Below are positions 10,820 to 64,000 of a DNA stretch of 64,000 bases, piece after piece. Both the position numbers and the translations under genes were made by a program. The number at the start of each line of letters is the position of its first letter. The stretch's first letter is position 1. This DNA is from Saprospiraceae bacterium (GTDB lineage: Bacteria > Bacteroidota > Bacteroidia > Chitinophagales > Saprospiraceae): the NCBI GenBank assembly GCA_016787345.1, contig JAEUUU010000008.1, forward strand, positions 1-64,000, read 5' to 3'. The notes under the pieces were generated by a model. It did no database searches, was not told the DNA's origin, and saw only the letters and a program-made list of their open reading frames with translations.

Positions 10820-10820
10820 G

Positions 10821-48997: not shown

Positions 48998-50587
48998 TTA
49001 GGGCTCCGTTTTGACAAATCTGGCGACCCGCGGTGTACCGCCGGCTGCTTGAATTTGTACCAGATAATGCCCCGGCATCAAGTCGCCGATCATGGCTTCC
49101 AGCTGTTGCGCGCCTGGCGCCGCGTCGCTTTGTAAGGCAAAAATTTTCAATGTCCGCCCGTTCAGATCCAGAATACTGGCCTGGAAATCAGCGGCTTCCA
49201 GCAGATCGAATTGCACCTGAATCCGCTCGCTGGCCGGATTGGGCGACACCCGCAGCGCGCCAAGTCGCGGATCGGGCGCAGCAGTGCCGCTGCTCAGCAA
49301 AGTGCTGTCAAGCACGATGTTTTCATCGCCCGGCTGATACAGCATGTAGGTGAAGTAGATCAGCATCATCTCGTCGGTCGTCGCTTCGCCCTGATTGACC
49401 CACTGCGGCGGATCGGAAGGATTTTGATCGTTGTTCAGGGTATTGTCGTACACGGCATAGGCATGCACTTTGGCGCCGATGGGCATTTTTTGCACCTGTT
49501 GGAACAAATACGAGCCCTGCCAGTGAAAATCCCAGTCGGGTATCCGGATCAGCGGAATGGTATCGCCTTGCAGGGTGCGGGCAAAACACTCGATGCTTTG
49601 CCCGATCAGGTGCATGTGCGGACCGATGCCAATCAGTGAGGCATTGGTGGGCACGGTAAATTGCGCGTGATAGGTCTTCACCTGATTGGGCGGGATGGAC
49701 AGCGGGTAATCGCTCAGCGAGGGCGGAAAATGGTTGATAAACGGCGCGATACTCACCTCGCGGATACCCTGATTGGTGGGGGTAAAAAACAAATTGACCG
49801 TCGCGTTGGCCGTCAGTCCCTGGGCATTGCCGGGGTAGTGAATTTGCAGGACGAGGTCGGCGCCGGGGGTGAGTTTCATACCCATAAACGGCGGCAGCAG
49901 CGTGTTGCGCGAGCCGGGTACCCAGGCGCCGACCAGCCGTGCGCCCTGCACCCCGATGCCGCCGAACTGGGCATATCCGGGCTCGGGGGTGGCCAGGTCG
50001 TTGAGTTTTGCCTGCCCGGTCGTGTCTTCAAATACCAGCACGTGGTGGATTGCCTGGTGATCGCTCGGAATAACCTCCATGCCGCGCAGAAAAGCCGTTT
50101 GGGCCAGTCCGTTGGGCACCACGAAACAGCGGTATTCGTCGACGGGCGAAGTAATGGTATAAAACGGCGTTTGCAAAATATGGTCGGGCATACCGATCTC
50201 CGAGCCCACGGTAAACACCGGATCGGGGGGCGCAGCCGCCAGGTTGCCCGACGGCGCGCCGGTAGCCACCCAGTCTTGAATACGCTGTATTTCAGCGTCG
50301 GTCAGGGTGTTCTCATGGGCAAACCGGCGATAATCCGGGTCGGCTTTCCACGGCGGCATCCGTTTTGCGGCCGTGGCGTCGGCGATTGCTTCCTTGTAAT
50401 TCACGGCATTGTCGTAGCCGATCAATGAAAACCCGGCGATGCCGCCGTCGCGGTGACATTTGACGCAATGGTCGTACAGCAGGGGAGCGATGTCGGTCGC
50501 CCAGTTGATCGACTGGGCCGAAAGACCGGGCAAGGCCAGCAGGAAGAGGACAAGCGAGGCAAGAGTGCCTTTTTGCGAAGAGGACAT
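48998..50587 (-). CDS. Candidate independent start: T9SS cytochrome c/Cu-monooxygenase-like protein
   Basis: 529 aa from the internal ATG at 50587 of the fused ORF. The signal peptide directly after this ATG, and the T9SS domain at the other end, show that this part must reach the outside by itself. The AT-rich 45 bp before the ATG looks like a leader. If it is translated from here, the upstream desaturase reads on into it without a stop. Confidence 0.55.
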   Translation of the reverse strand: MSSSQKGTLASLVLFLLALPGLSAQSINWATDIAPLLYDHCVKCHRDGGIAGFSLIGYDNAVNYKEAIADATAAKRMPPWKADPDYRRFAHENTLTDAEIQRIQDWVATGAPSGNLAAAPPDPVFTVGSEIGMPDHILQTPFYTITSPVDEYRCFVVPNGLAQTAFLRGMEVIPSDHQAIHHVLVFEDTTGQAKLNDLATPEPGYAQFGGIGVQGARLVGAWVPGSRNTLLPPFMGMKLTPGADLVLQIHYPGNAQGLTANATVNLFFTPTNQGIREVSIAPFINHFPPSLSDYPLSIPPNQVKTYHAQFTVPTNASLIGIGPHMHLIGQSIECFARTLQGDTIPLIRIPDWDFHWQGSYLFQQVQKMPIGAKVHAYAVYDNTLNNDQNPSDPPQWVNQGEATTDEMMLIYFTYMLYQPGDENIVLDSTLLSSGTAAPDPRLGALRVSPNPASERIQVQFDLLEAADFQASILDLNGRTLKIFALQSDAAPGAQQLEAMIGDLMPGHYLVQIQAAGGTPRVARFVKTEP

Positions 50588-51400
50588 GGTAGTTCTGTTT
50601 TGTAAATTTTTGACAACGTGTTGATTGGCTTTTATTCTTTCATGCACCTCATCCACCTTGTCGGCGCTATCGGTACGCAAGGTACCCATAAGCCGGTCCC
50701 AAATGGTAAAGTACAGCCCGAAATTGCCGGTAAACCGCTCGTGGTGCTGATTGTGGTAGATCGAACTGTTCAGCCAGCGCCCCAGCGGGTGGCGGTACAG
50801 GCTTTTCGGGAAAATCTCGTAGCCCAGATGCCCATACACATTGAACCAAAGCATCAGGGTGATAAAAGCAAAAAAGGAGATCGGATGCATGGGCATAAGC
50901 ACCAGCAAAAGCGGCAAAATGCCGCCTTCCAGCACGGCCTCCGAGGGGTGAAAAGCGTAGGCTGCCCAGGGTGAAGGATTCACCGAACGATGGTGCACCA
51001 GATGTACCCGCCGGTAAATGCGCGGATGGTGCATCAGCCGGTGCATCCAGTAGAAATAAGCGTCGTGGATCAGCAGGCTCAACGGGATACTCAGCAACAG
51101 CCAACCTATGCCGTATTCCTCAATATTGGTATAAAACTGCGTGTACTGGCGCAGCGGCGTGCCCAAAAACAGCCAGGCAATTGCCCCGAAAATACAGGCG
51201 GTCAGAAAGGAATAGCCGATCTCGCGGCGGTAGTCGCGGTCGGCCGGAAAACGTTGCTGGATTTTGCGATACAACCAGCCGCGGCGTTTCCAGACGTAAA
51301 AAACAAGAAACAGCGCACCGCTCAGCACTGCGTAGCGGCCAAATATCAGCAGCGGCGTGAGCATCCAGCGCAGGGAGGAAAAATCGGTCGGGTCGAACAT
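48998..51400 (-). CDS. In-frame fusion ORF: sterol desaturase/fatty acid hydroxylase plus T9SS cytochrome c and Cu-monooxygenase-like protein
   Basis: 800 aa without an internal stop. Residues about 1-262 are a four-helix fatty acid hydroxylase with His boxes HDAYFYWMHRLMHH, HLVHHRS and HNQHHER. Residues about 263-271 translate an AT-rich stretch that looks intergenic. At residue 272 is an ATG with a full signal peptide (LVLFLLALPGLSAQ). Then come a cytochrome c site (HCVKCHRDGG), a copper type II monooxygenase-like region (HQAIHHVLVFED, LQIHYPG, GIGPHMHLIGQ) and a T9SS sorting domain (VSPNPASERIQVQFD). Two genes that lost the separating stop is more likely than one functional fusion. Confidence 0.8.
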   Translation of the reverse strand: MFDPTDFSSLRWMLTPLLIFGRYAVLSGALFLVFYVWKRRGWLYRKIQQRFPADRDYRREIGYSFLTACIFGAIAWLFLGTPLRQYTQFYTNIEEYGIGWLLLSIPLSLLIHDAYFYWMHRLMHHPRIYRRVHLVHHRSVNPSPWAAYAFHPSEAVLEGGILPLLLVLMPMHPISFFAFITLMLWFNVYGHLGYEIFPKSLYRHPLGRWLNSSIYHNQHHERFTGNFGLYFTIWDRLMGTLRTDSADKVDEVHERIKANQHVVKNLQNRTTMSSSQKGTLASLVLFLLALPGLSAQSINWATDIAPLLYDHCVKCHRDGGIAGFSLIGYDNAVNYKEAIADATAAKRMPPWKADPDYRRFAHENTLTDAEIQRIQDWVATGAPSGNLAAAPPDPVFTVGSEIGMPDHILQTPFYTITSPVDEYRCFVVPNGLAQTAFLRGMEVIPSDHQAIHHVLVFEDTTGQAKLNDLATPEPGYAQFGGIGVQGARLVGAWVPGSRNTLLPPFMGMKLTPGADLVLQIHYPGNAQGLTANATVNLFFTPTNQGIREVSIAPFINHFPPSLSDYPLSIPPNQVKTYHAQFTVPTNASLIGIGPHMHLIGQSIECFARTLQGDTIPLIRIPDWDFHWQGSYLFQQVQKMPIGAKVHAYAVYDNTLNNDQNPSDPPQWVNQGEATTDEMMLIYFTYMLYQPGDENIVLDSTLLSSGTAAPDPRLGALRVSPNPASERIQVQFDLLEAADFQASILDLNGRTLKIFALQSDAAPGAQQLEAMIGDLMPGHYLVQIQAAGGTPRVARFVKTEP

Positions 51401-51463
51401 GACTAACAGGTTTGAGTGATGAATCGGCGTCAGGTTTAAGTTACCTGATGTTAATTTTTTGTC

Positions 51464-51471
51464 CAAATCTA
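51464..51471 (-). promoter_or_regulatory. Predicted promoter -7 box TAGATTTG of the desaturase-kinase-regulator operon
   Basis: TAGATTTG on the minus strand fits TAnnTTTG, 64 nt before the ATG at 51400. Confidence 0.5.
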
Positions 51472-51677
51472 TCTGCCTGTACGGTTTGTCTGCAAGGCAC
51501 ATTCAACCAACGGTCGCCCCCGATCAACCATTTGCAGGGCGATTGCCATGGGTTGAAAGAAAAAGGCGCTTGGTTGAGCCGGTTTGGCCGGCGCTTTTTT
51601 CAGCCCCCACCTTTGTCTCGTCGCCCCGAAATGCGACGCTCATTTTATCACGACAACCCTCATTCAAATTTCCCATC

Positions 51678-52400
51678 ATGCAAAACTTTCGTTCTGAACT
51701 GCGCCTTCTGACCCTGGCCCTGCTGGCCGTTCTTTTTGTTCTCAGCGCCTGCCGTAAAGACGGCGAGGTCGTCGCCGAACTGCTCACTGCGGCCGAAGCC
51801 GCCGAAATTACGGAATCGGCCGTCTCCGAACGCACCGCCGGCGCCACGCTGCCCACTATCGACATGACCGAATTGCTGGCCAGCATTCCCCAAACCTGCA
51901 ACACACCCGGCGATACCACCATTCAAAAAAGCAATACGTTTGGCGCCGCCAGTTATTCCTGCACCTTCAACCTGAGTTGGCTGCTCCATTGCAGCAACGC
52001 CGGCGTCCCGCAAAGCGCCGACGTCGACGTCAGCGGCAACGGTACCTTTTCCTCGGCCCATTGGTCGGGCGCCGACCAGACGACCGGCGAACTGACCATC
52101 ACCGGCATCGCGCCCTCGGCGACCGATTACGTGGTTTCGGGCTCGTACAACCTCAACGGCAACCTCACCGGCAACCTGCGCCGCACCGACCCGACCCTCG
52201 ACGTGCAAACAACCGTTACCCTCGCCAACCTGACCGTCCGCAAATCCGACTACCAGATCACCGACGGCGACGGCACGGTAAGCGTAACCGCCTCCAACGG
52301 TCAGGGACAGTCGCAAACGCTCACCGGTACCCTTGTCTTCAATGGCGACGGCACGGTGACCGTGACGGTCAACGGACATACACACACGTTCCCGATTTGA
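51678..52400 (+). CDS. Hypothetical lipoprotein
   Basis: 240 aa. Signal peptide ending in a lipobox (FVLSACRKD). The rest is Thr/Ser/Gly-rich beta structure with repeated -TVTV- strands and a final TVTVTVNGHTHTFPI. Two Cys pairs (QTCNTPGD; SYSCTFN, LHCSN) may be disulfides. Family not recognised. A near-consensus promoter (CACCTTTG at 51608, TTTG at 51583) lies upstream. Confidence 0.72.
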   Translation: MQNFRSELRLLTLALLAVLFVLSACRKDGEVVAELLTAAEAAEITESAVSERTAGATLPTIDMTELLASIPQTCNTPGDTTIQKSNTFGAASYSCTFNLSWLLHCSNAGVPQSADVDVSGNGTFSSAHWSGADQTTGELTITGIAPSATDYVVSGSYNLNGNLTGNLRRTDPTLDVQTTVTLANLTVRKSDYQITDGDGTVSVTASNGQGQSQTLTGTLVFNGDGTVTVTVNGHTHTFPI

Positions 52401-52411
52401 TGCAGATCGGC

Positions 52412-52451
52412 CAGGGTCGCGCGCCGTACGGCTTTTAAAAACGCGACCCTG
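52412..52451 (+). terminator. Terminator after the lipoprotein gene
   Basis: Outer stem CAGGGTCGCG / CGCGACCCTG encloses the small hairpin GCCGTACGGC with TTTT. Confidence 0.55.
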
Positions 52452-52489
52452 CCCAAACAACTCTCTGCCGCTTGCATCGTTATACCGGC

Positions 52490-52900
52490 ATGGAACTGAC
52501 GATTCAAACCCCCGCGCTGCTGTTTCCGGCCGTATCGTTGCTCATGCTGGCCTACACCAACAAGTTTCTTGCCATCGCCAACCTCATCCGGAAGTTGTAC
52601 TCCGATTACGAGGAAAAACAACAACTGCACCTGCTGTACCAAATCTCCAACCTCAAACGTCGCCTTCAACTCATCCGATGGATGCAGGTGATGGGTGTCG
52701 CCAGCATCCTGGGTTGCGTCGTCACCATGTTTTTTGTGTATGAAGAATGGCAGATGTGGGCCAAACTTCTGTTCGCAGGCAGCCTGCTCCTGATGATCGT
52801 TTCTCTGGTCATCTGCCTCGTTGAAATCTTCCTGTCGGCCGGCGCTTTGCGGCTTTTATTAAAAGACATCGAGGAAAAGGAAGACCAGCACCAGCAGTGA
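52490..52900 (+). CDS. DUF2721 membrane protein
   Basis: 136 aa. N-terminal PALLFPAVSLLMLAYTNKF and helices at about 10-28, 65-88 and 95-120 fit DUF2721. Between them is a charged region (YEEKQQLHLLYQISNLKRRL). Function unknown. The gene is followed by the rimP promoter. Confidence 0.85.
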   Translation: MELTIQTPALLFPAVSLLMLAYTNKFLAIANLIRKLYSDYEEKQQLHLLYQISNLKRRLQLIRWMQVMGVASILGCVVTMFFVYEEWQMWAKLLFAGSLLLMIVSLVICLVEIFLSAGALRLLLKDIEEKEDQHQQ

Positions 52901-52907
52901 GAGGGCA

Positions 52908-52939
52908 TTTGGCATATTCAAAAAAGCGACTTACCTTTG
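52908..52939 (+). promoter_or_regulatory. Predicted rimP-nusA promoter
   Basis: TTTG at 52908-52911 and TACCTTTG at 52932-52939 match the Bacteroidota -33 and -7 elements with a 20-nt spacer. Confidence 0.7.
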
Positions 52940-52967
52940 TGGCATAAATCTGATCGCAGTAAAACGA

Positions 52968-52992
52968 GAGGGAACCAAAAGTTCCCTCTTTT
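52968..52992 (+). terminator. Terminator-like hairpin in the rimP leader (possible attenuator)
   Basis: GAGGGAAC / GTTCCCTC with loop CAAAA, followed by TTTT. It lies inside the predicted 5' leader of rimP, between promoter and start codon, so it may attenuate the rimP-nusA transcript. Confidence 0.65.
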
Positions 52993-53028
52993 GTTTATAT
53001 CTACCTGAAAAACAGGTCAATACGCAGT

Positions 53029-53508
53029 ATGGACGTCACAGAACGCATCACCCGGCTCCTCGAAGAAAAATTCACGACCGACGAAGCATTCGCCGATTGC
53101 TTTATCGTCGAGATCCACCTCAAAGGCGGCCAGCACCTCGACGTGTTCGCCGATTCGGACTCGGGTATGACCTTCTTAAAGTGTCAGGCCCTCAGCCGCC
53201 ACCTCGAAAAACACCTCGACGAAAACGGCTGGCTCGGCGAAAAATACGTCCTCGAAGTCAGCAGCCCCGGCGTCGACCGGCCGCTCAAATTCCCGCGCCA
53301 GTACCGCAAAAACGCCGGCCGGACACTTGCCGTTACCCTGACCGATAAAACCCAAAAAACCGGGCTGCTCAAAAGCGCCGACGATAACGGAATCGTGCTC
53401 GAAACGACCCATATCGAACGCGAAAACAACAAGAAAAAAGAAGTCAAAACCGAAACGCCCATCGCTTACGACCAAATCGAAAAGGCGGTGGTGCAATTGG
53501 CATTTTGA
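53029..53508 (+). CDS. rimP: Ribosome maturation factor RimP
   Basis: 159 aa. The N-terminal alpha/beta domain (IVEIHLKGGQHLDVFADSDSG), the signature YVLEVSSPGVDRPLK and the C-terminal SH3-like domain fit RimP, which assists 30S subunit maturation. It is the first gene of the conserved rimP-nusA-infB set; nusA starts 29 nt after it. Confidence 0.93.
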   Translation: MDVTERITRLLEEKFTTDEAFADCFIVEIHLKGGQHLDVFADSDSGMTFLKCQALSRHLEKHLDENGWLGEKYVLEVSSPGVDRPLKFPRQYRKNAGRTLAVTLTDKTQKTGLLKSADDNGIVLETTHIERENNKKKEVKTETPIAYDQIEKAVVQLAF

Positions 53509-53536
53509 ATAAGGTTCAACTCAACACATTTCCACG

Positions 53537-54784
53537 ATGGTAAACTTAGTAGATGTTTTCTCCGACTTTAAATCCGGCAAAAACATTGACCGCCCCACCA
53601 TGGTGCGCGTACTGGAAGACGTATTCCGCACCCTGATCAAAAAGAAGTACGAAAACGACGAAAACTTCGATGTCATCGTCAATACCCAAAAAGGCGACCT
53701 TGAAATCTGGCGCGTGCGCGAAGTCGTACCCGACGGCGAGGTAACCGACGACAACAGCCAGATCGCCATCTCCGAGGCGCACCTCGTCGACGAGGCCCTC
53801 GAAGTCGGCGAAGAGTGTTACGAACAACTCTCGATCGAAGACTTTGGCCGCCGCGCCATCATGGCCGCCCGCCAGACGCTGGTGTCGCGCATCATGGAAC
53901 TCGAAAAAGACGAGGTGTACCGCAAATACACCGAGCGCGTGGGCGACGTGGTCACCGGCGAAGTCAGCCAGATTATGAAAAAAGACCTGCTCGTGCTCGA
54001 CGATGCGACCGGCAACGAACTCGTGTTGCCCCGCACCGAAATGATCAAAGGCGACTACTACCGCAAGGGCGATATGGTACGCGGCATCATTCGCAAGGTC
54101 GAAATGCGCAACAACGCGCCCTTCGTCATGATCAGCCGCACCGATCCCGGCTTCCTTGAAAAACTGCTCGAAGCCGAGGTGCCCGAGATCGAAGACGGCA
54201 TCATCGAGGTCAAAAACATCGTGCGCCTGCCCGGCGAACGCGCCAAGGTCGCCGTCGAGAGCCACGACGAACGCATCGACCCCGTGGGCGCCTGCGTGGG
54301 GATGAAAGGCAGCCGTATCCACGGCATCGTGCGCGAATTGCGCAACGAAAACATCGACATTATCAACTATACCAACAACGTTTCGCTGTTCATCCAGCGC
54401 AGCCTGACGCCCGCCAAAATCACGACCATCGAACTCGACAACGAACGCAAGCGCGCGGCCGTTTACCTCGACGCCGACCAGGTGAGCCTGGCCATCGGCA
54501 AAGGCGGCTCCAACATCAAACTGGCCACCAAACTCACCGGTTTTGAAATCGACGTGTACCGCAACAACCAGCAGGAATTCGAAATCGACGACGTGGATCT
54601 CGAGGAATTCAGCGACGAAATCGAACCCTGGGTGATCGAAGCGTTCAAAAACATCGGCTGCGATACCGCCCGCCAGGTGCTCGAACTCAGCGTCGAAGAA
54701 CTCGTGCGCCGCACCGACCTCGAAGAGGAAACCGTGCAGCAAATGGTCAATATCCTGGCCCGGGAATTTGAAGAAGAAGGGTAG
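53537..54784 (+). CDS. nusA: Transcription termination/antitermination protein NusA
   Basis: 415 aa. N-terminal RNA polymerase-binding domain (about 1-125), S1 domain (about 130-200, GDVVTGEVSQIMKKDLLV), two KH domains (about 205-350; VGACVGMKGSRIHGI and SLAIGKGGSNIKLA) and a short C-terminal helical end. It lacks the two acidic repeats found in E. coli NusA, as usual in Bacteroidota. It modulates pausing and termination. Confidence 0.96.
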   Translation: MVNLVDVFSDFKSGKNIDRPTMVRVLEDVFRTLIKKKYENDENFDVIVNTQKGDLEIWRVREVVPDGEVTDDNSQIAISEAHLVDEALEVGEECYEQLSIEDFGRRAIMAARQTLVSRIMELEKDEVYRKYTERVGDVVTGEVSQIMKKDLLVLDDATGNELVLPRTEMIKGDYYRKGDMVRGIIRKVEMRNNAPFVMISRTDPGFLEKLLEAEVPEIEDGIIEVKNIVRLPGERAKVAVESHDERIDPVGACVGMKGSRIHGIVRELRNENIDIINYTNNVSLFIQRSLTPAKITTIELDNERKRAAVYLDADQVSLAIGKGGSNIKLATKLTGFEIDVYRNNQQEFEIDDVDLEEFSDEIEPWVIEAFKNIGCDTARQVLELSVEELVRRTDLEEETVQQMVNILAREFEEEG

Positions 54785-54823
54785 GGGACACCCTTGCTCG
54801 AAATAAATAGCACATTATAGTAT

Positions 54824-54878
54824 ACAGAGGCGCGAAAGACGCGGAAGGAAATACCCTTCGCACTTTCAGCGCCTCTGT
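54824..54878. repeat. Imperfect inverted repeat of ACAGAGGCGC words
   Basis: ACAGAGGCGCGAAAGACGCG on the left pairs with CGCACTTTCAGCGCCTCTGT on the right. The words resemble those of the 46.6-47.2 kb array. It may terminate nusA. Confidence 0.6.
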
Positions 54879-54999
54879 GCATAAATTGTTCCGGCTCCGG
54901 ATTGTCATTAATTCGTATTACTGTTGATTAAAAATCATACAAGCAATCCAGATAAACCCGATACCGGACATTTCTGACATAAAAACCAACATCTTAACG

Positions 55000-55007
55000 T
55001 ATCTTTG
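55000..55007 (+). promoter_or_regulatory. Predicted infB promoter, TATCTTTG
   Basis: Exact TAnnTTTG match 136 nt upstream of the infB ATG, giving infB its own start site. Confidence 0.55.
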
Positions 55008-55142
55008 CGGCGTTTTCCAACCCATCTTCAAATTTTTTAAACGTTTTCAGCCTTCTAATACAGGACTTTTTCCCAACACAGCGCGTTACGTGCCTTCTTT
55101 AAACAGCAAATAGTTCCTTTTTTTCAGTAGAAAAACCGCTTA

Positions 55143-58088
55143 ATGGCATTAAAACTTATCAAGGTAGCGAAGGATTTCAACGTCGGTCTGCATAGCATCG
55201 TCGAGACCCTGCATGCCCGTGGCTTTACCCATGTCGAAGAACGACCCACCACGGAAATCACCGACGAAATGCTGGCCGTGCTCCAGAAAGAATTCCAGAA
55301 AGACCTCGCTATCAAACAGGAAGCCGACAAGCTCCTGCGCCCTGTGCTTAAAAAAGATCCTGTTCCTGTTCCTGTGCCCCCGCCGGCGCCGGTGACGGTC
55401 GCGCCCCCTGCGCCCCCGATCGCCAAGCCCGTGCTGCCCCGTCAGGAACCGCCCCAGGCTGCTCCCCCGCCACCGCCTCCCCCGGCCGAACCGGTCCCGG
55501 CGCCCGCGCCGCCCAAGCCGGCCGAGCCCGAAGTGCTGCCCCGCGAGCGCCCCGCCCTGCGCGTGGTCGGCAAAATCGACCTCAACCCGCCCAAGCCGGC
55601 GCCCAAGCCCGAAGAGAAAAAACCGGCCCCGGTCGTCGAAAAAGCGGAAAAGCCCGCCGAGCAGCCGCCGGCAGCCCCTCCGCCGCCCGCCCCGGCCCCG
55701 GCGCCCGCGCCGCCCAAGCCGGCCGAACCCGCTCCGGCCGAACCCGCTGCCGCGGAGTCCGAAGACCCCGAATTCTACCGCGCCGACTCCCCGCAGCTCC
55801 GCGGCCTCAAAATTCTCGGCAAAGTCAATCTGGAAAAACCCGCCCCGCCCAGCACCGGCAACCGGAGCGGTGGAAACAATAACAACCGCAACACCGGAGG
55901 CCGTCGTGACGACCGCGGTGGCCGCCGTGACGACCGGCAGCAAGGAACCACCAACCCGCCGCAAACCGGCCAGCCGGCTACCGCGGGCGGAAACGACCCC
56001 AACGCCGAACGCCGCAAGCGCAAACGCAAAAAAGTACAACAACCGGTCACGGCCGAATCCCTGCAAGCCTCCATGTCGGGCAACCAGGGCGACCGCAAAG
56101 GCGGCGGCAACCGCGGCCCCGCACCCGGCAACCGCCCGGCCGGCGGCCCCGACGCCCCCAAAGAGGTCTCGCTCAAGGAGATTGAAGATCAAATCCGCCA
56201 GACCATGGCCCGCCTCGGCGCCGGCGCCAGCCGTAAACGCCAGAAAATCCGCCGCGACAAACGCGACGAACGCCGCGAACGCGCCGAACAGGCCCAAATG
56301 GCCGAAACCGAAGGCGGAAAAACCCTGCAGGTAACCGAGTTCATCTCGGTATCCGACCTGGCCGCACTCATGAACGTGCGCCCGGCCGATATTATCAAAG
56401 CCTGTATGACCCTGGGCATCTTCGTGTCGATCAACCAACGCCTCGACGCCGAACTGATCGAAGTTGTGGCCAGCGAATTCGGCTACGAAATCCAGTTCAT
56501 CAGCGCCGAAGAACAGGTCGAGGTCGAAGAAGAAGAAATCGACGATCCGGCCGATCTGCGCCCGCGCCAGCCCATCGTCACCGTGATGGGTCACGTCGAC
56601 CACGGTAAAACCTCCTTGCTCGACTTTATCCGCTCCGCCAAAGTCGCCGAAGGCGAAGCCGGCGGTATCACGCAGCACATCGGCGCCTACGAAGTCACCA
56701 CCGACGACGGCCGCAAAATCACCTTCCTCGATACCCCCGGTCACGAAGCCTTTACCGCCATGCGTGCGCGGGGCGCCAAAGTAACCGACGTAGCCATCAT
56801 CGTGATCGCCGCCGACGACTCCATCATGCCCCAAACCCGCGAGGCCATCAGCCACGCACAGGCCGCGGGCGTACCTCTCGTTTTCGCGATTAACAAGATC
56901 GATAAAGCCGGCGCCGACCCCGAACGGATCAAAAACGAACTGGCGCAAATGAACCTGCTGGTGGAAGAATGGGGCGGTAAATACCAAAGCCAGGACATTT
57001 CGGCTAAAAAGGGCCTCAACGTGGACAAACTCCTCGAAAAAGTACTCCTCGAAGCCGAATTACTCGAACTCCAGGCCAATCCCAAACGCCGCGCTGTGGG
57101 CACTGTGCTCGAAGCATCGCTCGAAAAAGGCCTGGGCTACGTCGCCAAAATCCTGGTCGAAAACGGCACGCTCGACATCGGCGACCCGATCATCGCGGGC
57201 GAATTCGCCGGCCGCGTCAAGGCCCTGTTCAACGAACGCGGCAAAAAGGTGAAATCTGCCGGCCCGGCCCAACCCGTGGTCGTGCTCGGCCTTCCGGGCG
57301 CCCCGCAAGCCGGTGAAAAAATCAAGGAAGCCGCCACCGACGCCGAAGCCAAGGAGATCGCATCCAAACGCGCTCAAATCCTTCGCGAACAGGCCAACCG
57401 CGCCAACAAACGCATCAGCCTCGAAGAAATCGGCCGCCGCCTCGCCCTGGGCAACTTCAAAGAACTCAAACTCATCGTCAAAGGCGACGTGGACGGTTCG
57501 GTGGAAGCCCTCAGCGACTCGCTCATCAAACTGTCGATGGACAAAATCCAGGTCTCGGTTATCCACAAAGCCGTCGGCCAGATCGTCGACTCCGACGTCA
57601 TGCTCGCCTCCGCTTCCGATGCCATCATCATCGGCTTTCAGGTGCGCCCCTCGCTCACGGCCCGCAAACTGGCCGAAAAAGAAGGCGTGGAGATCAAAAT
57701 GTACTCCATCATCTACGAGGCCATCGAAGAAATCAAGGCCGCAATGGAGGGCATGCTGGAGCCGACGAAAGAAGAAGAGATCATGGGCCAGGTGGAAATC
57801 CGCGAGGTCTACAAAATCTCCAAAGTCGGCACCGTGGCCGGTTGCTACGTGCAGGAAGGCAAGATCAGCCGCAACCACTACGTGCGCATCATCCGCGACG
57901 GTATCGTGGTATACCCGGTCAATGCCAACCAGCACGCCGAACTCTCCTCGCTCAAACGTTTTAAGGAAGACGCCAAAGAGGTCAAAGGCGGCCTCGAATG
58001 CGGTCTTACAATCCGCAACTTCAACGACATTAAAGTCGGCGACGTGGTCGAATCCTACGTGGTGAACGAGGTGAAAACAAAACTTTGA
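55143..58088 (+). CDS. infB: Translation initiation factor IF-2
   Basis: 981 aa. The N-terminal IF2_N helix (residues 1-60) is followed by a long Pro/Ala-rich linker (about 75-210), a Gly/Arg/Asn-rich stretch (240-345) and a second IF2_N-like region at about 400-460. The GTPase has G1 GHVDHGKT at 483-490, G3 DTPGHE and G4 NKID. IF-2 brings fMet-tRNA to the 30S subunit. Low-complexity linkers differ widely among relatives. Confidence 0.96.
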
Positions 58089-58165
58089 TTCACACGGGTT
58101 TCCCGACCAGGCAGCGCGCCAATCCGCGTGCCATGGCGGGAAATACCAGCGATAATGAAATAATG

Positions 58166-58199
58166 GCCCCCGGCGACGATGCAGTTGCCGGGGGCTTTT
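58166..58199 (+). terminator. Terminator of infB
   Basis: GCCCCCGGCGAC / GTTGCCGGGGGC with loop GATGCA, then TTTT. Confidence 0.88.
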
Positions 58200-58227
58200 G
58201 CTTGCCCGCCAAATAGGCAGAACCCTG

Positions 58228-58235
58228 TACTTTTG
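58228..58235 (+). promoter_or_regulatory. Predicted promoter -7 box TACTTTTG
   Basis: Exact TAnnTTTG match after the infB terminator, upstream of the small gene at 58348. Confidence 0.5.
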
Positions 58236-58347
58236 CCTTGTCTACTTCGCGCCGGGAAGATTTAAGCAGGAGGTTGGTAAGGGTTTGTGGAATCCGTCCT
58301 ACTGAAAATCTGGCGTCAAGCGGTATTCGATAATATTTTTTTTAAAG

Positions 58348-58599
58348 GTGAAAAAGAAACTGACACTCTATCTGGATGCAACCGTTGTCGAAAACGCCAG
58401 GCGGTATGCCCGGCAGAACGGCAAGCATTTGTCTGGCCTGATCGAGGATTATCTGCAGGCACTGACGGCAGATAATCCGCCGTCAGTGGAATCGACCTCC
58501 AAAACCAGCCGCCTTTACGGCATACTGGCGCCATTAGGCCAGGATACGGATACGCGACCGCAGCTGGAAGAAATTTTGACCCAAAAATATCTTCCATAA
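58348..58599 (+). CDS. DUF6364-like ribbon-helix-helix protein (possible antitoxin)
   Basis: 83 aa from a GTG at 58348. The N-terminus KKKLTLYLDATVVENARRYA, then GKHLSGLIEDYL, is the RHH pattern of DUF6364 and similar antitoxins. The C-terminal tail (RLYGILAPLG) would contact a partner. Such genes normally precede a PIN-domain toxin, but the next 120 bp hold only a 40-codon frame that runs into a repeat array. Confidence 0.7.
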   Translation: MKKKLTLYLDATVVENARRYARQNGKHLSGLIEDYLQALTADNPPSVESTSKTSRLYGILAPLGQDTDTRPQLEEILTQKYLP

Positions 58600-58654
58600 G
58601 CATGACAATCGAGGAACAACGCGCCAGTCAGCCCGTTTTTACCTCCCCCCGCTC

Positions 58655-58710
58655 CATCAACCCTCATCAACCTTATAAACCCATATCAACCTCATCAACC
58701 CTCATCAACA
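58655..58710. repeat. Array of CATCAACCCTCATCAACC words before rfbA
   Basis: Direct words CATCAACCCTCATCAACC, TTATAAACC and ATATCAACC, the same as one arm of the ftsX-DUF3098 array. It lies 10 bp before the rfbA ATG. A short frame (58602-58724, ATG to TGA) has its 3' half made of this array. Confidence 0.75.
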
Positions 58711-58720
58711 CATTTTACCC

Positions 58721-59587
58721 ATGAAAGGTATCATCCTCGCCGGCGGCCTCGGCACCCGGCTTTATCCCCTGACCCTCGCCGTGAGCAAACAGCTCATGCC
58801 GGTGTACGACAAACCCATGATTTACTACCCGCTCAGCACACTCATGCTGGCGGGTATCCGCGACGTGCTCATCATTTCCACACCCTACGACCTGCCCAAG
58901 TTCGAACAACTCTTCGGCGACGGCTCGGCGCTGGGCATGAACTTTTCCTACGTCGTGCAACACGAGCCCAACGGCCTGGCCCAGGCTTTTGTGCTCGGCG
59001 CGCCTTTCATCGGCAACGACTCCGCCTCGCTGATCCTGGGCGACAATATCTTTTACGGCGCCGGCCTGGGCGAACTCGTGCGTTCCTGCGCCGCGCCGCA
59101 AGGCGGGATTATCTTCGCTTACCAGGTGGCCGACCCGGAACGCTACGGCGTAGTCGAGTTTGACGAAAATTTCCGCGCCCTCAGCATCGAGGAAAAACCC
59201 CGGCAGCCCAAAAGCCACTACGCCGTGCCGGGACTGTATTTCTACGACAACTCCGTCGTGGAAGTCGCCCGCAACCTGCGGCCCAGCCCGCGCGGCGAAT
59301 ACGAAATCACCGACGTGAACAAATATTATCTCGAAAAAGGCCTGCTCGAAGTGCGCGTCATGGGCCGCGGCTACGCCTGGCTCGACACCGGCACCCACGA
59401 ATCGCTCATGCAGGCCGGACAATTCATCCAGACCATCGAAACCCGGCAGGGCCTCAAAATCGGTTGCATCGAGGAAATTGCCTGGGAAATGGGTTTCATC
59501 GACGACGCCGGACTGGAACAACTGGGCCGGAAATACGTGAAAAGCGGGTACGGAGAGTATTTGCTGAATTTGTTGAAAAACAAATGA
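58721..59587 (+). CDS. rfbA: Glucose-1-phosphate thymidylyltransferase
   Basis: 288 aa. [11 protein letters not shown] is the nucleotidyltransferase signature at residues 8-18; [18 protein letters not shown] and LGDNIFYG complete the active site. It makes dTDP-glucose for dTDP-rhamnose and related sugars. rfbB/C/D are not adjacent. The promoter of the TIR gene overlaps its 3' end. Confidence 0.95.
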
Positions 59588-59602
59588 ACCGCCCTAAATT
59601 TG
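59573..59602 (+). promoter_or_regulatory. Predicted promoter of the TIR-FGE operon
   Basis: TTG at 59573-59575, a 19-nt spacer and TAAATTTG at 59595-59602 match the Bacteroidota -33/-7 consensus. The TIR ATG follows 20 nt later. Confidence 0.65.
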
Positions 59603-59621
59603 TCGGCCGCCAACCCGCCAC

Positions 59622-61100
59622 ATGACGCCCGTTGATATATTTATCGCCTACTCCCACAAAGACCTCGCCTTCAAAGACGAGCTCCGCGTACACCTACGCC
59701 CGCTCACCCGCGCCGGCCGTGCCCGCGTGTGGGACGACCACGACATCGAGGCCGGCCGCGAATGGGACGCGGCCATCAAGGAAAAACTCTTCGCCGCGCA
59801 GATCATCCTCCTGCTCGTCAGCCCCGACTCCCTCGATTCCGATTATTTCTACGGCCAGGAAGTCGCCGTTTCGCTCGAACGCCACGCCCGCGGCGAAGCC
59901 GTGGTGGTGCCCGTCATCCTGCGCGCCTGCCTCTGGCAACAAACGCCCCTCGGCGCCCTCGAAGCCCTGCCCACCAAGGGCAAACCCGTGAACTCCTGGA
60001 CGCCCCGCGACGACGCCTGGCACGCCGCCGCCCAGTCGGTCAGCGAACTCGTCGATACCCGCCGCGCCGAACTCGAACGCCAAACCGCCCTCGAACAACA
60101 ACGCCGCGCCTTCGCCGCCGCCGTGGAAGCCGCCGCTCAACTGGCCCAAAACCACAACTGGCCCGAGGCCGCCCGCGCCTTCGCCGACGCCCTGCGCCTC
60201 CACCAGCCCGGCTTCTCGCCCGACCCGGCCGCGCTGGAGCAACGCATCGACGATTGCCACCACCAACAAAACGCCGCCCTCCGCCAGGCCGAGCTCGCCG
60301 AACGCAAAGCCGTGTTCGACCGCACCCTCACCCGCGCCGGCACGCTGTTCGGACAGGAAAACTGGCCCGAAGCCCTCGACGCCTACCGCGACGCCCTGCG
60401 CCTTCGCGAACCCGATTTCCCCCTCACCGAGGCCGGCAGCCGCATCGAAACGCGCATTGCCCAATGCGAGGCGCAGATCAAAGCGGCCGCCGACCGGCTC
60501 CGCCATTACCAGCGCCTGCTCGAAACCGCCCAAAAACACCTCCGCCGCCGCGAATTCGACCCCGCCGAAGCGCTGGCCGAAGAAGCCCGGCAACTGAACA
60601 TGGGCCCCGGCGCCGACGGACTACTCGCCCAAATCCGTACCGCCCGCGAACAACCCGCCCCGCCCGCCGCCCAGGGCGCCCGCCGCTGGCCCTTCGCCCT
60701 GGGCGCCGCGCTGCTCTGCGTGGCGCTGTTCCTGATCTTCCGGCCCGGCAAAACCGCCCGCACCGGCAACCCGCCTGCTGATACCACCCTGCGCAACAAC
60801 CCGCCGACCCCCGCTGCCCAGACGCCCTCCGCTGCCGAAACCGCCGATTTCAACGCTGCCAAAACTGCCGGCCGCCTCCGGCCGCTCGAACAATTTTTGA
60901 ACAAATACCCCGACAGCCGCTACAAAAAAGAGGTGCAGGCCCTGCTCGTGCCCCTGTACCTGGGCTCGGCCAAAACCCTGCTCAAGGAAGACAGCCGCGC
61001 CGCCAAAACCGCGGCCTGCGGCTACGTTATGGCCATCCTGGCCATCGACCCGACCCATGCCGGCGCCCTCGATCTTCAGCGACGTTTCAAATGCCAATAA
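59622..61100 (+). CDS. TIR-domain membrane protein, partner of the DGR target
   Basis: 492 aa. Residues 1-145 are a TIR domain (MTPVDIFIAYSHKD, WDDHDIEAGREW). Glu80 in SDYFYGQE aligns with the catalytic Glu of NAD-consuming TIR domains. Residues 146-345 hold TPR-like helices, with the pair NWPEAARAFADALRL (179-193) and NWPEALDAYRDALRL (247-261). A membrane helix lies at 356-374. The outer C-terminus (410-492) has EQFLNKYPDSRYKKEVQALL, a module also present in the next protein. Codons are strongly C-ending. It could signal from a periplasmic sensor to a cytoplasmic NADase. NADase activity and signalling are inferred. Confidence 0.88.
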   Translation: MTPVDIFIAYSHKDLAFKDELRVHLRPLTRAGRARVWDDHDIEAGREWDAAIKEKLFAAQIILLLVSPDSLDSDYFYGQEVAVSLERHARGEAVVVPVILRACLWQQTPLGALEALPTKGKPVNSWTPRDDAWHAAAQSVSELVDTRRAELERQTALEQQRRAFAAAVEAAAQLAQNHNWPEAARAFADALRLHQPGFSPDPAALEQRIDDCHHQQNAALRQAELAERKAVFDRTLTRAGTLFGQENWPEALDAYRDALRLREPDFPLTEAGSRIETRIAQCEAQIKAAADRLRHYQRLLETAQKHLRRREFDPAEALAEEARQLNMGPGADGLLAQIRTAREQPAPPAAQGARRWPFALGAALLCVALFLIFRPGKTARTGNPPADTTLRNNPPTPAAQTPSAAETADFNAAKTAGRLRPLEQFLNKYPDSRYKKEVQALLVPLYLGSAKTLLKEDSRAAKTAACGYVMAILAIDPTHAGALDLQRRFKCQ

Positions 61101-61102
61101 CC

Positions 61103-62467
61103 ATGAAAATTATCCCCGCACTCCTCCTCCTGCTCGCCGCCCTGCTCGCCCCGGCCCTCGCCTCCGCCCAATGCTGCTGCTGCATCAAACGCGACGCCGG
61201 CCAAAAACTCTACGACCAGGGCAAATACGAAGCCGCGATCGCCAAATGGCAGGAAGGCAAAACAGAGTGCGGCGACGCCCCCGACGACTGCCCCGACCTC
61301 GACCAGCGCATCAGCAAGGCTCGCGCCAAAATCAAGGAACGCGACCAGGCCGCCGCCCAGCGCCGCCGCGAACAGGAAGCCGCCGCCCAACAACAACGCG
61401 AACGGGAAGAACGCGAAGCCGCCGCCCAGCAGGCCGAACTCCAGCGCCTCCGCGACAAAGCCGACGACGACCTCTGGGACGTGCTCAAAGACGGCAACGC
61501 CGCCGACTGCGACCGATACCTGTCCAAGTACCCCGAATCCAAACCCGGCCGGCATACGCAGGAGGCACTGCAACGGAAAAAAATGCTGACGGGGGCGGGG
61601 ACGGCTGTTACGCCGACTACCAGCGATGCGCCAGGCGCGGGAACCGCTAAGGCGGCTTACGAGCCTGAAATGCTCAAAATTACCGGCAGCGATTTCCGAA
61701 TGGGCAGCGAGGCGGGTGATTCGGATGAAAAACCGGTACACAATGTCACTATCAGCAGTTTTCACCTCGGCAAATACGAGATCACCAATGCCCAGTTCTG
61801 CGCGTTTCTCAATGAAAAAGGCAACCAGACCGAAGGGGGGGTAGAGTGGATTGATTTGTCCGGTACTTACGACGATGAAAAATGCCGGATTTATGCCGAG
61901 GGCACGGGTTTCAAGGTGCGTTCTGGCTACGAAAATTACCCTGTTATTTTCGTCTCCTGGTACGGCGCGACGGCTTACTGCGCATGGCTGAGCGCCAAAA
62001 CCGGAAAAAAATACCGCCTGCCCACCGAGGCGGAATGGGAGTATGCTGCCGGCAATGGCGCCAAACACACGACGTACAGCTGGGGAAGTGTATCGCCCTC
62101 CGGCGTTCAGGGCGGGAATGTGGCCGATGAAACCGCGAAAAAGCGTTACTCCAGTTGGGCGATTTTCGATGGTTATTCGGATGGTTACGTTTACACGGCG
62201 CCAGTAGGCAAATTCAATCCGAACGACTTTGGTCTTTATGATATGAGCGGCAACGTATGGGAATGGTGCGCTGACTGGTACGGATCGGATTATTACGCTT
62301 CCAGCCCGTCTTCCAATCCTAAGGGACCGGATTCCGGTACTTATCGGGTTTGCCGGGGTGGCGGCTGGGATTCGGTACCATCGGGAGCCAGGGGCGCCTC
62401 CCGGAACAGGTACGGACCGAACACACGGTACCTCAGTCTGGGGTTCCGGGTCGCCCGAGACTATTAA
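61103..62467 (+). CDS. Secreted FGE-fold variable protein, target of the diversity-generating retroelement
   Basis: 454 aa. Start at 61103 (2 nt after the TIR stop) gives a signal peptide ending ASAQ, then CCCC. A charged coiled coil spans about 66-125, then DRYLSKYPESKPGRHTQEAL (137-156), like the TIR protein's C-terminus. Residues about 188-454 form an FGE/sulfatase-modifying-factor domain (FRMGSEAGDSDEKPVH, GKYEITNAQFCAFLN, LPTEAEWEYAAG, DMSGNVWEWCADW). The two Cys of active FGE are missing, so it is a C-type-lectin-fold binder. The last 40 residues (415-454) are the variable region. Codon bias relaxes after about 61600. Confidence 0.92.
   Translation: MKIIPALLLLLAALLAPALASAQCCCCIKRDAGQKLYDQGKYEAAIAKWQEGKTECGDAPDDCPDLDQRISKARAKIKERDQAAAQRRREQEAAAQQQREREEREAAAQQAELQRLRDKADDDLWDVLKDGNAADCDRYLSKYPESKPGRHTQEALQRKKMLTGAGTAVTPTTSDAPGAGTAKAAYEPEMLKITGSDFRMGSEAGDSDEKPVHNVTISSFHLGKYEITNAQFCAFLNEKGNQTEGGVEWIDLSGTYDDEKCRIYAEGTGFKVRSGYENYPVIFVSWYGATAYCAWLSAKTGKKYRLPTEAEWEYAAGNGAKHTTYSWGSVSPSGVQGGNVADETAKKRYSSWAIFDGYSDGYVYTAPVGKFNPNDFGLYDMSGNVWEWCADWYGSDYYASSPSSNPKGPDSGTYRVCRGGGWDSVPSGARGASRNRYGPNTRYLSLGFRVARDY
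62347..62467 (+). other. DGR variable region (VR)
   Basis: 121 bp ending at the stop codon. It matches the TR at 62564-62684 without gaps. 15 differences lie at 62369-62436 and all sit opposite A in the TR. Two more differences (62459 G for C, 62465 T for C) lie in the last 9 bp, in the IMH region. The first 22 bp contain no A in the TR and are identical. One 3' difference turns CAA into the TAA stop. Confidence 0.95.
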
Positions 62468-62507
62468 ACTTTATACTTTTATATTTTTACCCTTTTTACA
62501 TTTTTTT

Positions 62508-62534
62508 AAAATTCGGCGAAGCCGAAATTTTTTT
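62508..62534 (+). terminator. Terminator after the FGE-fold gene
   Basis: AAATTCGGC / GCCGAAATTT with loop GAA, then T residues. It separates the target gene transcript from the template repeat. Confidence 0.75.
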
Positions 62535-62563
62535 AGAAAAAGGGCAACGCGGCAGGCAGGCCA

Positions 62564-62684
62564 GGTTTGCCGGGGTGGCGGCTGGAATACGAAACCAACG
62601 GAAGCCAGGGGCGCCAACCGGAACAGGAACGAACCGAACAAACGGAACAACAATCTGGGGTTCCGGGTCGCCCGACACTATCAA
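62564..62684 (+). other. DGR template repeat (TR)
   Basis: 121 bp. In the frame of the VR it reads GWNTKPTEARGANRNRNEPN, with AAY and other A-rich codons at the variable positions. Of 31 A residues in the 68-bp diversified stretch, 15 differ in the VR. No C, G or T differs there. It would be transcribed as part of a template RNA and copied by the reverse transcriptase with A mutagenesis. Confidence 0.95.
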
Positions 62685-62856
62685 GACGCATTAGAGCTGT
62701 CTTCGCCGGAGTCTGGCGGTTGCATAGTGCCCCGCCGGAGTGTGCGATTAGATAGTCTGCGCGTTGTCCTGTCCCTGTCCGTTTGGGCATGGCAAATACA
62801 TCGTTGGAAGGTGGGGCTAGTAGCTGGTCGAACGTCCCGCCTTTCTTTTTTTTTCT
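62685..62856 (+). ncRNA. Probable 3' part of the DGR template RNA
   Basis: 172 bp between TR and avd with no convincing gene. In known DGRs the RNA downstream of the TR is needed for cDNA priming. Contains CGCCGGAGT repeated twice (62708 and 62733) and a T-rich tract (62841-62856). Exact ends are unknown. Confidence 0.45.
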
Positions 62857-63207
62857 TTAATGCTTGAGCGATTTAATCCAGCCGCCGATCATACTGCCAA
62901 TTTCGTCGACCTTTCGGGCTAAATCCTGGTACTTTAAGGAGTTGTAATAACCCAACTCGAAACAAAGCCGAAAGAAGTAGCGGAGTTTTTCGAGTTGAAT
63001 ATTAGCCCTGCGAAGGCGGGCTAACTTCTCCTCGGCCGGCGAATAGTACGCTTCGATACAAATTTCGAGAACATCCGTGGCGGTATTTTGGATGCGATCA
63101 CCCAGCAAAAAGCGCTGCTGCCGTGGGAATCTCGCCAGTATTGGGACGAGGTCTTTTAGTAGCGTAAATGTTTTATTCACAATCAAATTGTCCTGATGAA
63201 GCGGCAT
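62857..63207 (-). CDS. avd: DGR accessory protein Avd
   Basis: 116 aa four-helix-bundle protein. ARFPRQQRFLLGDRIQ, LRRANIQLEKLRYFFRL, ELGYYNSLKY and the C-terminal EIGSMIGGWIKS are typical of Avd. Avd forms a basic barrel-shaped pentamer that binds the DGR reverse transcriptase and template RNA. Here it is on the minus strand, opposite to TR and RT, and its ATG (63207) overlaps the RT start (63196) by 12 bp. Confidence 0.92.
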   Translation of the reverse strand: MPLHQDNLIVNKTFTLLKDLVPILARFPRQQRFLLGDRIQNTATDVLEICIEAYYSPAEEKLARLRRANIQLEKLRYFFRLCFELGYYNSLKYQDLARKVDEIGSMIGGWIKSLKH

Positions 63208-64000
63208 ACTTTTCTTTTTGATAAGATAACGGACTTTGATAATTTATTGTCGGCTTTTTATCAGGCTCGCAAAGGCAAGCGGGACAAGCCGGCGGTTGCG
63301 GCTTTTGAGATGAATGTAGAACGCAATTTGTTTGATATACAGCAGGAATTGAAATCAAAATCCTACCTGCCCGGTGCATACACCACCTTCCTCATCCACG
63401 ATCCCAAGCAGCGCATGATCAGCACCGCGCCGTTTCGCGACCGGGTGGTACACCATGCTTTGGTGAATGTGATCGAGCCGATATTTGAAAAAACATTTGT
63501 TCACGACAGTTATGCCAACCGCAAGGGCAAAGGGACGCACCGGGCGATCGAGCGGTATCAGCACTACGCCCGGCGTTACTCCTGGGTATTGAAATGCGAC
63601 ATCCGGAAATTTTTCCCCAGTGTGGATCACGCTGTTCTGAAGCGGGAAATCCGCTGGAAAATCGCCTGTCCTGACACGCTTTGGTTGTGCGACCGAATCA
63701 TCGACGGCTCCAATACACAGGAGGCGCCCGGCGTGTACTGGCCGGGCGATTATTGTTTGCCCGGCGCGGCGGAAGCGCAGATTTGGCCACGTCGGGGGCT
63801 TCCCATCGGCAACCTGACCAGTCAGTTTTGGGCCAATGTGTACCTGAATCGTTTCGACCATTTCGTGCGGGAGACCTTGCGTGCGCCCGGCTATGTGCGC
63901 TACGTCGACGATTTTGTGTTGTTTTCCGACGATAAAAACTGGCTGCAGGCCGTGCAGGCGCCCCTGTCGGATTTTCTGGCTGTTCAGCGTTTGGCCCTGC
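63196..64000 (+). CDS. DGR reverse transcriptase (partial, runs off the window)
   Basis: 268 codons visible from ATG 63196, no stop. TAPFRDRVVHHALVN is the RT1 region, VLKCDIRKFFPSVDH is motif A with the catalytic Asp, GLPIGNLTSQFWANVYLNRF is the motif typical of DGR RTs, and YVRYVDDFVLF is motif C with YVDD. The C-terminal thumb lies beyond the window. It copies the TR RNA with adenine-specific errors, and the cDNA replaces the VR. Confidence 0.95.
   Translation, partial: MKRHTFLFDKITDFDNLLSAFYQARKGKRDKPAVAAFEMNVERNLFDIQQELKSKSYLPGAYTTFLIHDPKQRMISTAPFRDRVVHHALVNVIEPIFEKTFVHDSYANRKGKGTHRAIERYQHYARRYSWVLKCDIRKFFPSVDHAVLKREIRWKIACPDTLWLCDRIIDGSNTQEAPGVYWPGDYCLPGAAEAQIWPRRGLPIGNLTSQFWANVYLNRFDHFVRETLRAPGYVRYVDDFVLFSDDKNWLQAVQAPLSDFLAVQRLAL

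Follow-up and report, generated by a model that had tools for sequence, protein, structure and literature searches.

A diversity-generating retroelement whose lectin-type target gene overlaps the gene of a putative membrane TIR protein in a Saprospiraceae bacterium

We analysed a stretch of 64,000 nucleotides from a Saprospiraceae bacterium (assembly GCA_016787345.1, contig JAEUUU010000008.1, here C118, positions 1 to 64,000; hereafter the window) and found a diversity-generating retroelement (DGR) near its end. The element is almost certainly a genuine DGR of a known kind, and contains a template repeat (TR), a variable repeat (VR), an Avd gene, and a reverse transcriptase (RT) gene. Its target gene, which is predicted to encode an exported protein of the C-type-lectin type, overlaps the gene of a TIR protein bearing a predicted transmembrane (TM) span. 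As a whole, we favour, with some reserve, the explanation that the DGR rewrites an exported lectin acting with the membrane TIR protein. The features are listed in Table 1; loci, genomes, and contigs are denoted by L, G, and C, respectively.

The TR and VR are 121-bp repeats that aligned without gaps at 86% identity, with their starts 217 bp apart. Seventeen differences were observed between them. The 15 differences in the first 112 bp were all at adenines of the TR (7 A>T, 5 A>G, and 3 A>C), and the remaining two were at TR cytosines within the last 9 bp. The first 112 bp of the TR contains 32 adenines, and the probability that 15 random mismatches all fall on them was 3.6e-10; the 68-bp stretch 62586-62653 contains 31 adenines, of which 15 were changed. 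The original prediction, made from the DNA letters alone, had described the gapless pair at this spacing, the VR at the 3' end of a gene, the 15 changes confined to adenines, and two final differences like those between the initiation of mutagenic homing sequence (IMH) and IMH*. The same alignment was recovered, the recounts agreed, and the gene at 61091-62467 ends with the VR. With regard to the criteria for DGRs, both an IMH/IMH*-type difference and a hairpin after the VR were found at this locus. Of the 15 changes, eight were at the first codon position, seven at the second, and none at the third, where 5 of the 31 adenines lie. The VR keeps the reading frame of the target, and the TIR, target, Avd, and RT frames are all open. 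By arithmetic only, changing all 31 adenines to any base would give 4.6e18 DNA and 3.7e15 protein variants. Past DGR activity, as had been proposed, is the natural reading of this pattern of differences.

The original prediction had named VR differences at non-adenine positions in relatives as a possible argument against it. The differences in relatives were nearly all at TR adenines: 17/17 in L058, 16/16 in L066, 17/18 and 15/15 in L078, and 17/18 plus one gap in L060, the lowest share of an RT-linked pair in the survey of relatives being 20/25 (L077, from a lineage with no Avd detected). These shares are partly selected for, because the pairs were chosen by an adenine share of at least 0.75 in one survey or at least 0.85 in a wider one. 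The orthologous contig in G025 (C210) stops inside the TIR gene; hence, no second VR of this locus was readable. A remote VR for the window TR was also sought in the genome and rejected: apart from the TR and VR themselves, the best match had E 0.014 over 25 query bases, in a stretch judged by eye to be no VR.

Subsequently, the RT was examined. When the sequence was extended past the window, as had been proposed, a complete RT of 370 aa was obtained (C118 63196-64308; the contig ends at 65100). Among solved structures, its closest relative was chain 8ub7_A ("Reverse transcriptase") with 274 bits, whereas a group II maturase scored 101 bits. We take 8ub7 to be the RT of the Bordetella BPP-1 DGR. 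In an RT tree of 77 rows, the window RT was placed among DGR RTs, and three group II RTs from the same order were separated from it with an SH-like approximate likelihood ratio test (SH-aLRT) support of 100; the tree covers 77 of the 120 RTs collected, was built by a quick method with SH-aLRT support only, and carries a long-branch warning at the group II split. The assignment of the YVDD RT to the DGR type was thus supported by both comparisons, and the phylogeny for which the original prediction had called did not group the RT with group II introns. Judged from its sequence, the RT is of the DGR type. At 1e-20, RT matches were found in 17 of the 60 genomes searched (own genome included) and in 2 of 23 genera. 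Right after the RT gene (L004 4328-4985, corresponding to C118 64328-64985), we observed two repeats of 167 nt and 101 nt, each doubled about 395 bp apart, with copies 97% and 94% identical, respectively.

The Avd gene was identified with 105.9 bits on NCBIfam DivGenRetAVD (cut-off 80) and 2e-18 on Pfam bAvd. The original prediction had placed an Avd gene and then the RT gene after the repeats. The Avd gene proved real, but it lies on the minus strand and does not run in the same direction as the RT gene; the 5' ends of the two genes overlap by 12 bp. Among the best 80 of 562 relatives, counted by named loci, an Avd match was found in 76, on the same strand as the RT in 74 and on the opposite strand in two (L078 and L079, both labelled Bacteroidota, L079 and L062 being one contig). 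Among the rows of the tree, Avd was opposite in eight (L004, L058, L059, L060, L062, L066, L067, and L078), on the same strand in 44, and absent in 11, where L104 is counted as absent yet has an Avd outside the distance rule, and 11 viral rows are unlabelled. The eight opposite-Avd rows belong to two starred sets of the tree, making up five of the six rows of the set with the window and three of the four rows of the other; four changes of orientation are needed on the tree, two of them forced by starred branches. In seven of the eight opposite-Avd loci, which are of this genus or labelled Bacteroidota, the start codons of Avd and RT stand head to head, with the 12-bp overlap in the window and L062, a shared CATG in L058, L059, and L060, and a gap of 2-3 bp in L078 and L067; these starts were chosen by hand, and the Avd open reading frame (ORF) of L062 is open further upstream. 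In L066, Avd and RT are convergent. The TR near the opposite Avd lies between VR and Avd (window and L058), is inverted to the VR (L060), or overlaps the 3' end of the RT gene (L078). In L060, the repeats at 6910-7027 and 7324-7440 have the TR inverted to the VR and on the strand of Avd, and the VR is one nucleotide shorter than the TR, by which the end of the target is frame-shifted. The part of the DGR literature covered by our survey held no inverted Avd, and an earlier description is possible. The idea of control through overlapping opposite transcripts is not new (PMC7154746). In view of the opposite-strand arrangement, a shared transcript of RT and Avd seems unnecessary.

The 176 nt on the 3' side of the TR showed a fold z of -3.3. 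A covariance model, R2, was built on an alignment (A4) of 14 spacers free of TR letters, eight of these spacers having been picked by a good score on a first model, R1. It was searched in 136 loci outside A4, namely 85 cellular loci, 40 of 80 viral loci, and 11 controls without a known DGR, with rough E-values. The 50 hits obtained at E <= 0.1 comprised 42 in the cellular loci, distributed over 41 of the 85, and eight in the 40 viral loci; the other 44 cellular loci and all of the controls were without a hit. Where a TR had been detected, 35 of 36 hits were located from -20 to 170 nt 3' of the TR on the same strand, and one was elsewhere (L184); 14 further hits were in loci without a detected TR. 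L141 had two hits (1826-1974 and 3595-3746), perhaps with two TRs. No hit was obtained in the eight no-Avd-lineage loci searched, and the spacer RNA therefore belongs to the Avd-bearing type of DGR. In the 11-pair 3' stem, 95.4% of the cells over 41 distinct hits were paired, with double-sided changes in 167 cells against 39.8 +/- 6.7 after shuffling, and the covariation was 1.02 against 0.28 +/- 0.025 for shuffled and 0.13-0.22 for pairings slid by 1-3 columns; the alignment was fitted to R2 and leans towards the stem. The region 58000-64000 had no match in Rfam 15. Taken together, these findings show that the spacer downstream of the TR is a structured RNA, with strong covariation, across phyla in Avd-bearing loci. 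The spacer of BPP-1 is also structured and recruits RT-Avd (PMC12875486, PMC8867640). R2 marks the 3' side of TRs in many loci, and could help to find DGR templates at loci that lack a visible VR.

The core hairpin starts 44 bp past the VR. Three copies of the 15-mer were found in the 5.28-Mb genome: that of the window, one between the VR and TR of the DGR on C146, and one in an unrelated gene. The last copy (C6) was rejected as a DGR mark, being inside a coding sequence with no TR/VR-like repeat there, and is regarded as a coincidence. A GNA triloop hairpin followed 11 of the 28 VRs examined. Among these, 10 VRs were from Avd-bearing loci of the genus, and seven of them (all but those of L064, L072, and L074) were followed by the TTCGGC[GAA] form; it followed none of the 10 VRs from the no-Avd lineage. 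The survey was then widened to the 134 of 181 loci that have a VR/TR pair, with 152 deduplicated sites; a few pairs may be tandem repeats, and the viral loci were not thinned by kinship. When perfect stems of 6 bp or more with 4 G/C were required within 110 nt, 23 VRs were followed by C(GNA)G triloops and 17 by C(GNNA)G tetraloops, and neither loop was observed after the TR or before the VR; of the 42 loops of the G..A form, 41 had C as the closing base. With stems of 5, the counts after the VR, after the TR, and before the VR were 24, 1, and 0 for triloops and 18, 0, and 1 for tetraloops. Two results speak against a simple loop rule: with stems of 5, neither loop was found at 111 of the 152 sites, and the commonest single tetraloop after the VR was G(CTTG)C (eight sites). 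C(GNA)G loops form an extraordinarily stable type of DNA hairpin. Short DNA hairpins of extraordinary stability have been described (PMC10527192), and the sources give GRNA tetraloops for phages (Guo et al. 2011) and GRA triloops for one archaeal group (Paul et al. 2015).

The FGE-sulfatase domain of the target occupies residues 191-456 of 458, and the solved relatives include Treponema denticola variable protein 1 (2y3c) with E 5.5e-16; the fold is accordingly predicted to be of the C-type-lectin type. The protein is probably exported, as suggested by its signal-peptide-like start. The AlphaFold model of the target was weak (predicted local distance difference test score (pLDDT) 69.5) and was set aside. 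A TSP_3 repeat in the L058 target is consistent with an extracytoplasmic location. In G025, the genome with the nearest TIR ortholog, C15 contains several FGE matches in a row, part of the N-terminal stretch of the window target matching there at 75%.

The TIR protein matched Pfam TIR_2 (2.3e-13) and PADLOC ThsB (4.1e-46), with a TPR_2 match under its cut-off. Its predicted layout is a TIR domain, a helical stretch (by eye), one hydrophobic span, and a short end. We take E80 in YFYGQE to be the candidate catalytic glutamate. No solved TIR relative was found by sequence at 0.001, and the AlphaFold model was again weak (pLDDT 60.8) and set aside. The TIR and target genes share 10 bp in the window and 4 bp in L058 and L059. 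In L060, the two are a single 652-aa protein with TIR at residues 6-113, a span at 307-325, and the variable FGE domain at 363-628. L138, on a contig labelled Acetobacteraceae, likewise has a DGR target in the order TIR, span, and FGE, with 15/16 differences at adenines. Furthermore, TIR-span-FGE fusions without RT or Avd in the 12-16 kb fetched were found in the genus (L309, L310, and L311). L308 has a split TIR/FGE pair, where a DGR is possible because the contig stops 122 bp past the FGE gene. A whole-genome RT search (1e-20) gave none in G002 (L308) and G023 (L309 and L311), and several elsewhere in G009 (L310). Since TIR-TM-FGE proteins without nearby RT or Avd exist in the genus, the DGR looks like an addition to an already existing receptor family. 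When the window was compared with L312, protein identity was 99.0% for infB, 99.3% for rfbA, and 90.8% for the TIR protein (437 residues), and the ratio of nonsynonymous to synonymous substitution rates for the same genome pair was 0.036, 0.020, and 0.316, respectively. These values point to a TIR gene that is kept but evolves fast.

Table 1 Features of the DGR locus in the window.
Feature	Position	Strand	Basis or remark
TANNTTTG, possible -7-like promoter element	59595..59602	+	27 bp before the TIR start codon
TIR-TM protein, 492 aa; TIR 6-114, hydrophobic span 358-376	59622..61100	+	Pfam, PADLOC, hydropathy
DGR target; signal-peptide-like start, helical middle (by eye), FGE-sulfatase (C-type-lectin-type) domain 191-456	61091..62467	+	Pfam 7e-61, hydropathy
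VR, stop codon included	62347..62467	+	Repeat alignment with TR
VR 3' end, IMH-like; no A-site changes, both C-site differences	62437..62467	+	Putative role by analogy with BPP-1
Extended inverted repeat after VR	62490..62544	+	DNA fold of 62468-62563, z -2.9
Core hairpin TTCGGC[GAA]GCCGAA, C-G closed GNA triloop	62512..62526	+	Sequence search, loop survey
TR	62564..62684	+	Repeat alignment with VR
Structured spacer RNA; 3' stem 62807-62817 with 62834-62844, then T run	62706..62858	+	Fold, covariance model
Avd, 116 aa, strand opposite to RT	62857..63207	-	NCBIfam, Pfam profiles
DGR RT, GLPIGNLTSQ and YVDD	63196..64000, on to 64308 of the contig	+	Domain, structure and tree comparison

On this evidence, we propose that a TIR-coupled sensor carries a lectin varied by the DGR, a coupling to which we give slightly better than even chances. 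Several observations weigh against it. A TIR match was found in only 12 of 102 DGR loci scanned, and the clade mate L078 gave none. TIR genes are frequent in the genus, with matches at 1e-15 in 18 of 40 genomes (own genome included), so that some pairings may be due to chance, hardly so for overlapping or fused genes. TIR-FGE targets without a span stand beside a DGR RT in L122, L131, L133, L067, and L074, and L148 has a weak span; coupling therefore does not need the membrane. By eye, L067, L133, and L148 have a STAND-like middle part. The charges flanking the TM spans gave no clear preference for the C-terminus outside, the proposed topology being drawn from hydropathy. With DGR RTs elsewhere in G009, a TR may act from afar on the L310 fusion.

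The element might instead be an ordinary DGR varying a secreted or surface adhesin, with the upstream TIR gene an unrelated conflict-gene neighbour. This account is plausible but we doubt it. Most clusters of cellular DGR targets have an N-terminal TM segment or signal peptide together with binding domains (Roux et al. 2021, PMC8144416), and the frequency of TIR genes in the genus suits it as well; however, the TIR and target genes overlap in three genomes and are fused in a fourth, and TIR-TM-FGE fusions exist apparently without a DGR. It is highly improbable that the DGR has decayed into fossil repeats with no present diversification. The VRs of L005 (by eye) and L060, out of register with their TRs by one nucleotide and thereby shifting the target frame, would fit such decay, but the frames in the window are open with the VR in frame, the changes avoid third codon positions, and the hairpin, IMH-like end, and spacer RNA are all present. 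Finally, there seems to be a negligible chance that the RT is of group II intron origin or from some other class of RT, with the repeats unrelated: the group II maturase model gave it 147.8 bits, under the cut-off of 300, the tree and solved structures place it with DGRs, and TR, Avd, and spacer RNA adjoin it.

The sensor that we favour would work as follows. By analogy with BPP-1, an RNA of TR and spacer would be made from the plus strand, probably ending near 62845-62855 at the T run past the stem; the position of this run after the spacer stem and before Avd speaks for a separate TR transcript over one operon of TIR, target, TR, and RT. The RT and Avd, made from opposite strands, would bind the spacer and copy the TR with errors at adenines, and the cDNA would replace the VR between the 5' homology and the IMH-like end, the C(GAA)G hairpin serving as the target mark. 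Such replacement would rewrite the binding face of the exported FGE-fold protein. The variable lectin may then sense something at or outside the inner membrane, with phage particles or cell-surface ligands as candidates, working with the membrane-anchored TIR protein, whose TIR domain would give a cytosolic output, probably NAD+ cleavage or a nucleotide signal.

In the parts of the literature that we consulted, the BPP-1 DGR (avd-TR-spacer-brt) is alike in its adenine-site TR/VR differences, RT, Avd, C-type-lectin target, IMH, hairpin after the VR, and structured spacer after the TR (PMC3240598, PMC12875486). Unlike BPP-1, the window DGR is not on a recognised phage, its Avd is on the opposite strand, its hairpin loop is a 3-nt GAA and not a 4-nt GRNA, and its target overlaps a TIR gene. 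FGE/TIR/DGR loci have already been treated as putative conflict systems (PMC7159879, PMC8195603, PMC10907252). The FGS/DGR ternary and STAND systems (Kaur et al. 2020 PMC7159879; eLife 2021 PMC8195603; Dore et al. 2024 PMC10907252) are alike in having DGR-varied FGE-fold sensors with TIR or other effectors, and some of their targets are predicted to be periplasmic or secreted. Unlike in these, and unlike in MoxR-vWA ternary systems, where MoxR ATPase and vWA genes adjoin the FGE gene, no MoxR, vWA, or STAND gene was found in the eight upstream genes scanned, and the window TIR protein bears a TM span. As to Thoeris, the TIR protein is ThsB-like, but no ThsA was found in the eight upstream proteins scanned with PADLOC. 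Inverted DGRs (DiGReF group 4, PMC3521204) likewise divide the cassette between the two strands; in them, the RT runs opposite to TR/VR, whereas in the window only Avd is inverted, its start overlapping that of the RT. The nanoarchaeal DUSEL4 DGRs (PMC4372165) share a hairpin with a GRA trinucleotide loop, but they are archaeal and the hairpin is inside the target gene.

The genes at 48998-59587 upstream of the locus are those of a fatty-acid hydroxylase, DUF2721, RimP, NusA, IF-2, DUF6364, a nucleotidyl transferase, and one protein without a match; the downstream neighbourhood is limited by the contig end, 0.8 kb past the RT. TANNTTTG, which we take to be a -7-like promoter motif of Bacteroidota, has its sole plus-strand match in 59300-63200 before the TIR gene, about 0.9 being expected by density. 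The genome has two further DGRs. The RT of the first (L005, G000:C146:14000-27069) is 49% identical to the window RT over 1-352, and its neighbours are an EAD11 protein, an AAA ATPase, and a 1573-aa FGE ORF, with an iSTAND match under its cut-off. In L005, target and TR are on one strand and Avd and RT on the other; by eye, the VR is one nucleotide longer than the TR, which shifts the target frame in the assembly, and tandem ATTCATC-type heptamers were observed at 4050-4166, 10375-10470, 10763-10851, and 11391-11472. The second (L071, G000:C117:44000-53076) belongs to the RT lineage without an Avd found and has its TR just past the RT; its target has FGE and TSP_3 matches. In L067 (1136-4627), an N gap extends across the VR region of the TIR-FGE target, and in L059 (8363-10021) VR and TR appear as one copy with no repeat pair; DGR repeats may break assemblies.

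The DGR itself is of a well-known kind; it becomes an instructive variant through its membrane TIR pairing, its opposite Avd, and its conserved spacer. Should the TIR protein read out the variable lectin, the locus would allow a direct study of how targeted hypermutation serves bacteria in varying a sensor whose signal ends in an immune enzyme of a known class. Fused, split, DGR-bearing, and apparently DGR-free versions occur in one genus, which makes the origin of the receptor testable. Tentatively, and with somewhat less than even confidence, we suggest a build like that of a Toll-like receptor, with a hypervariable lectin outside and TIR inside, in which a DGR was added to a fixed TIR-TM-lectin receptor family. 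If true, this would represent somatic-style receptor diversification at the cell envelope.

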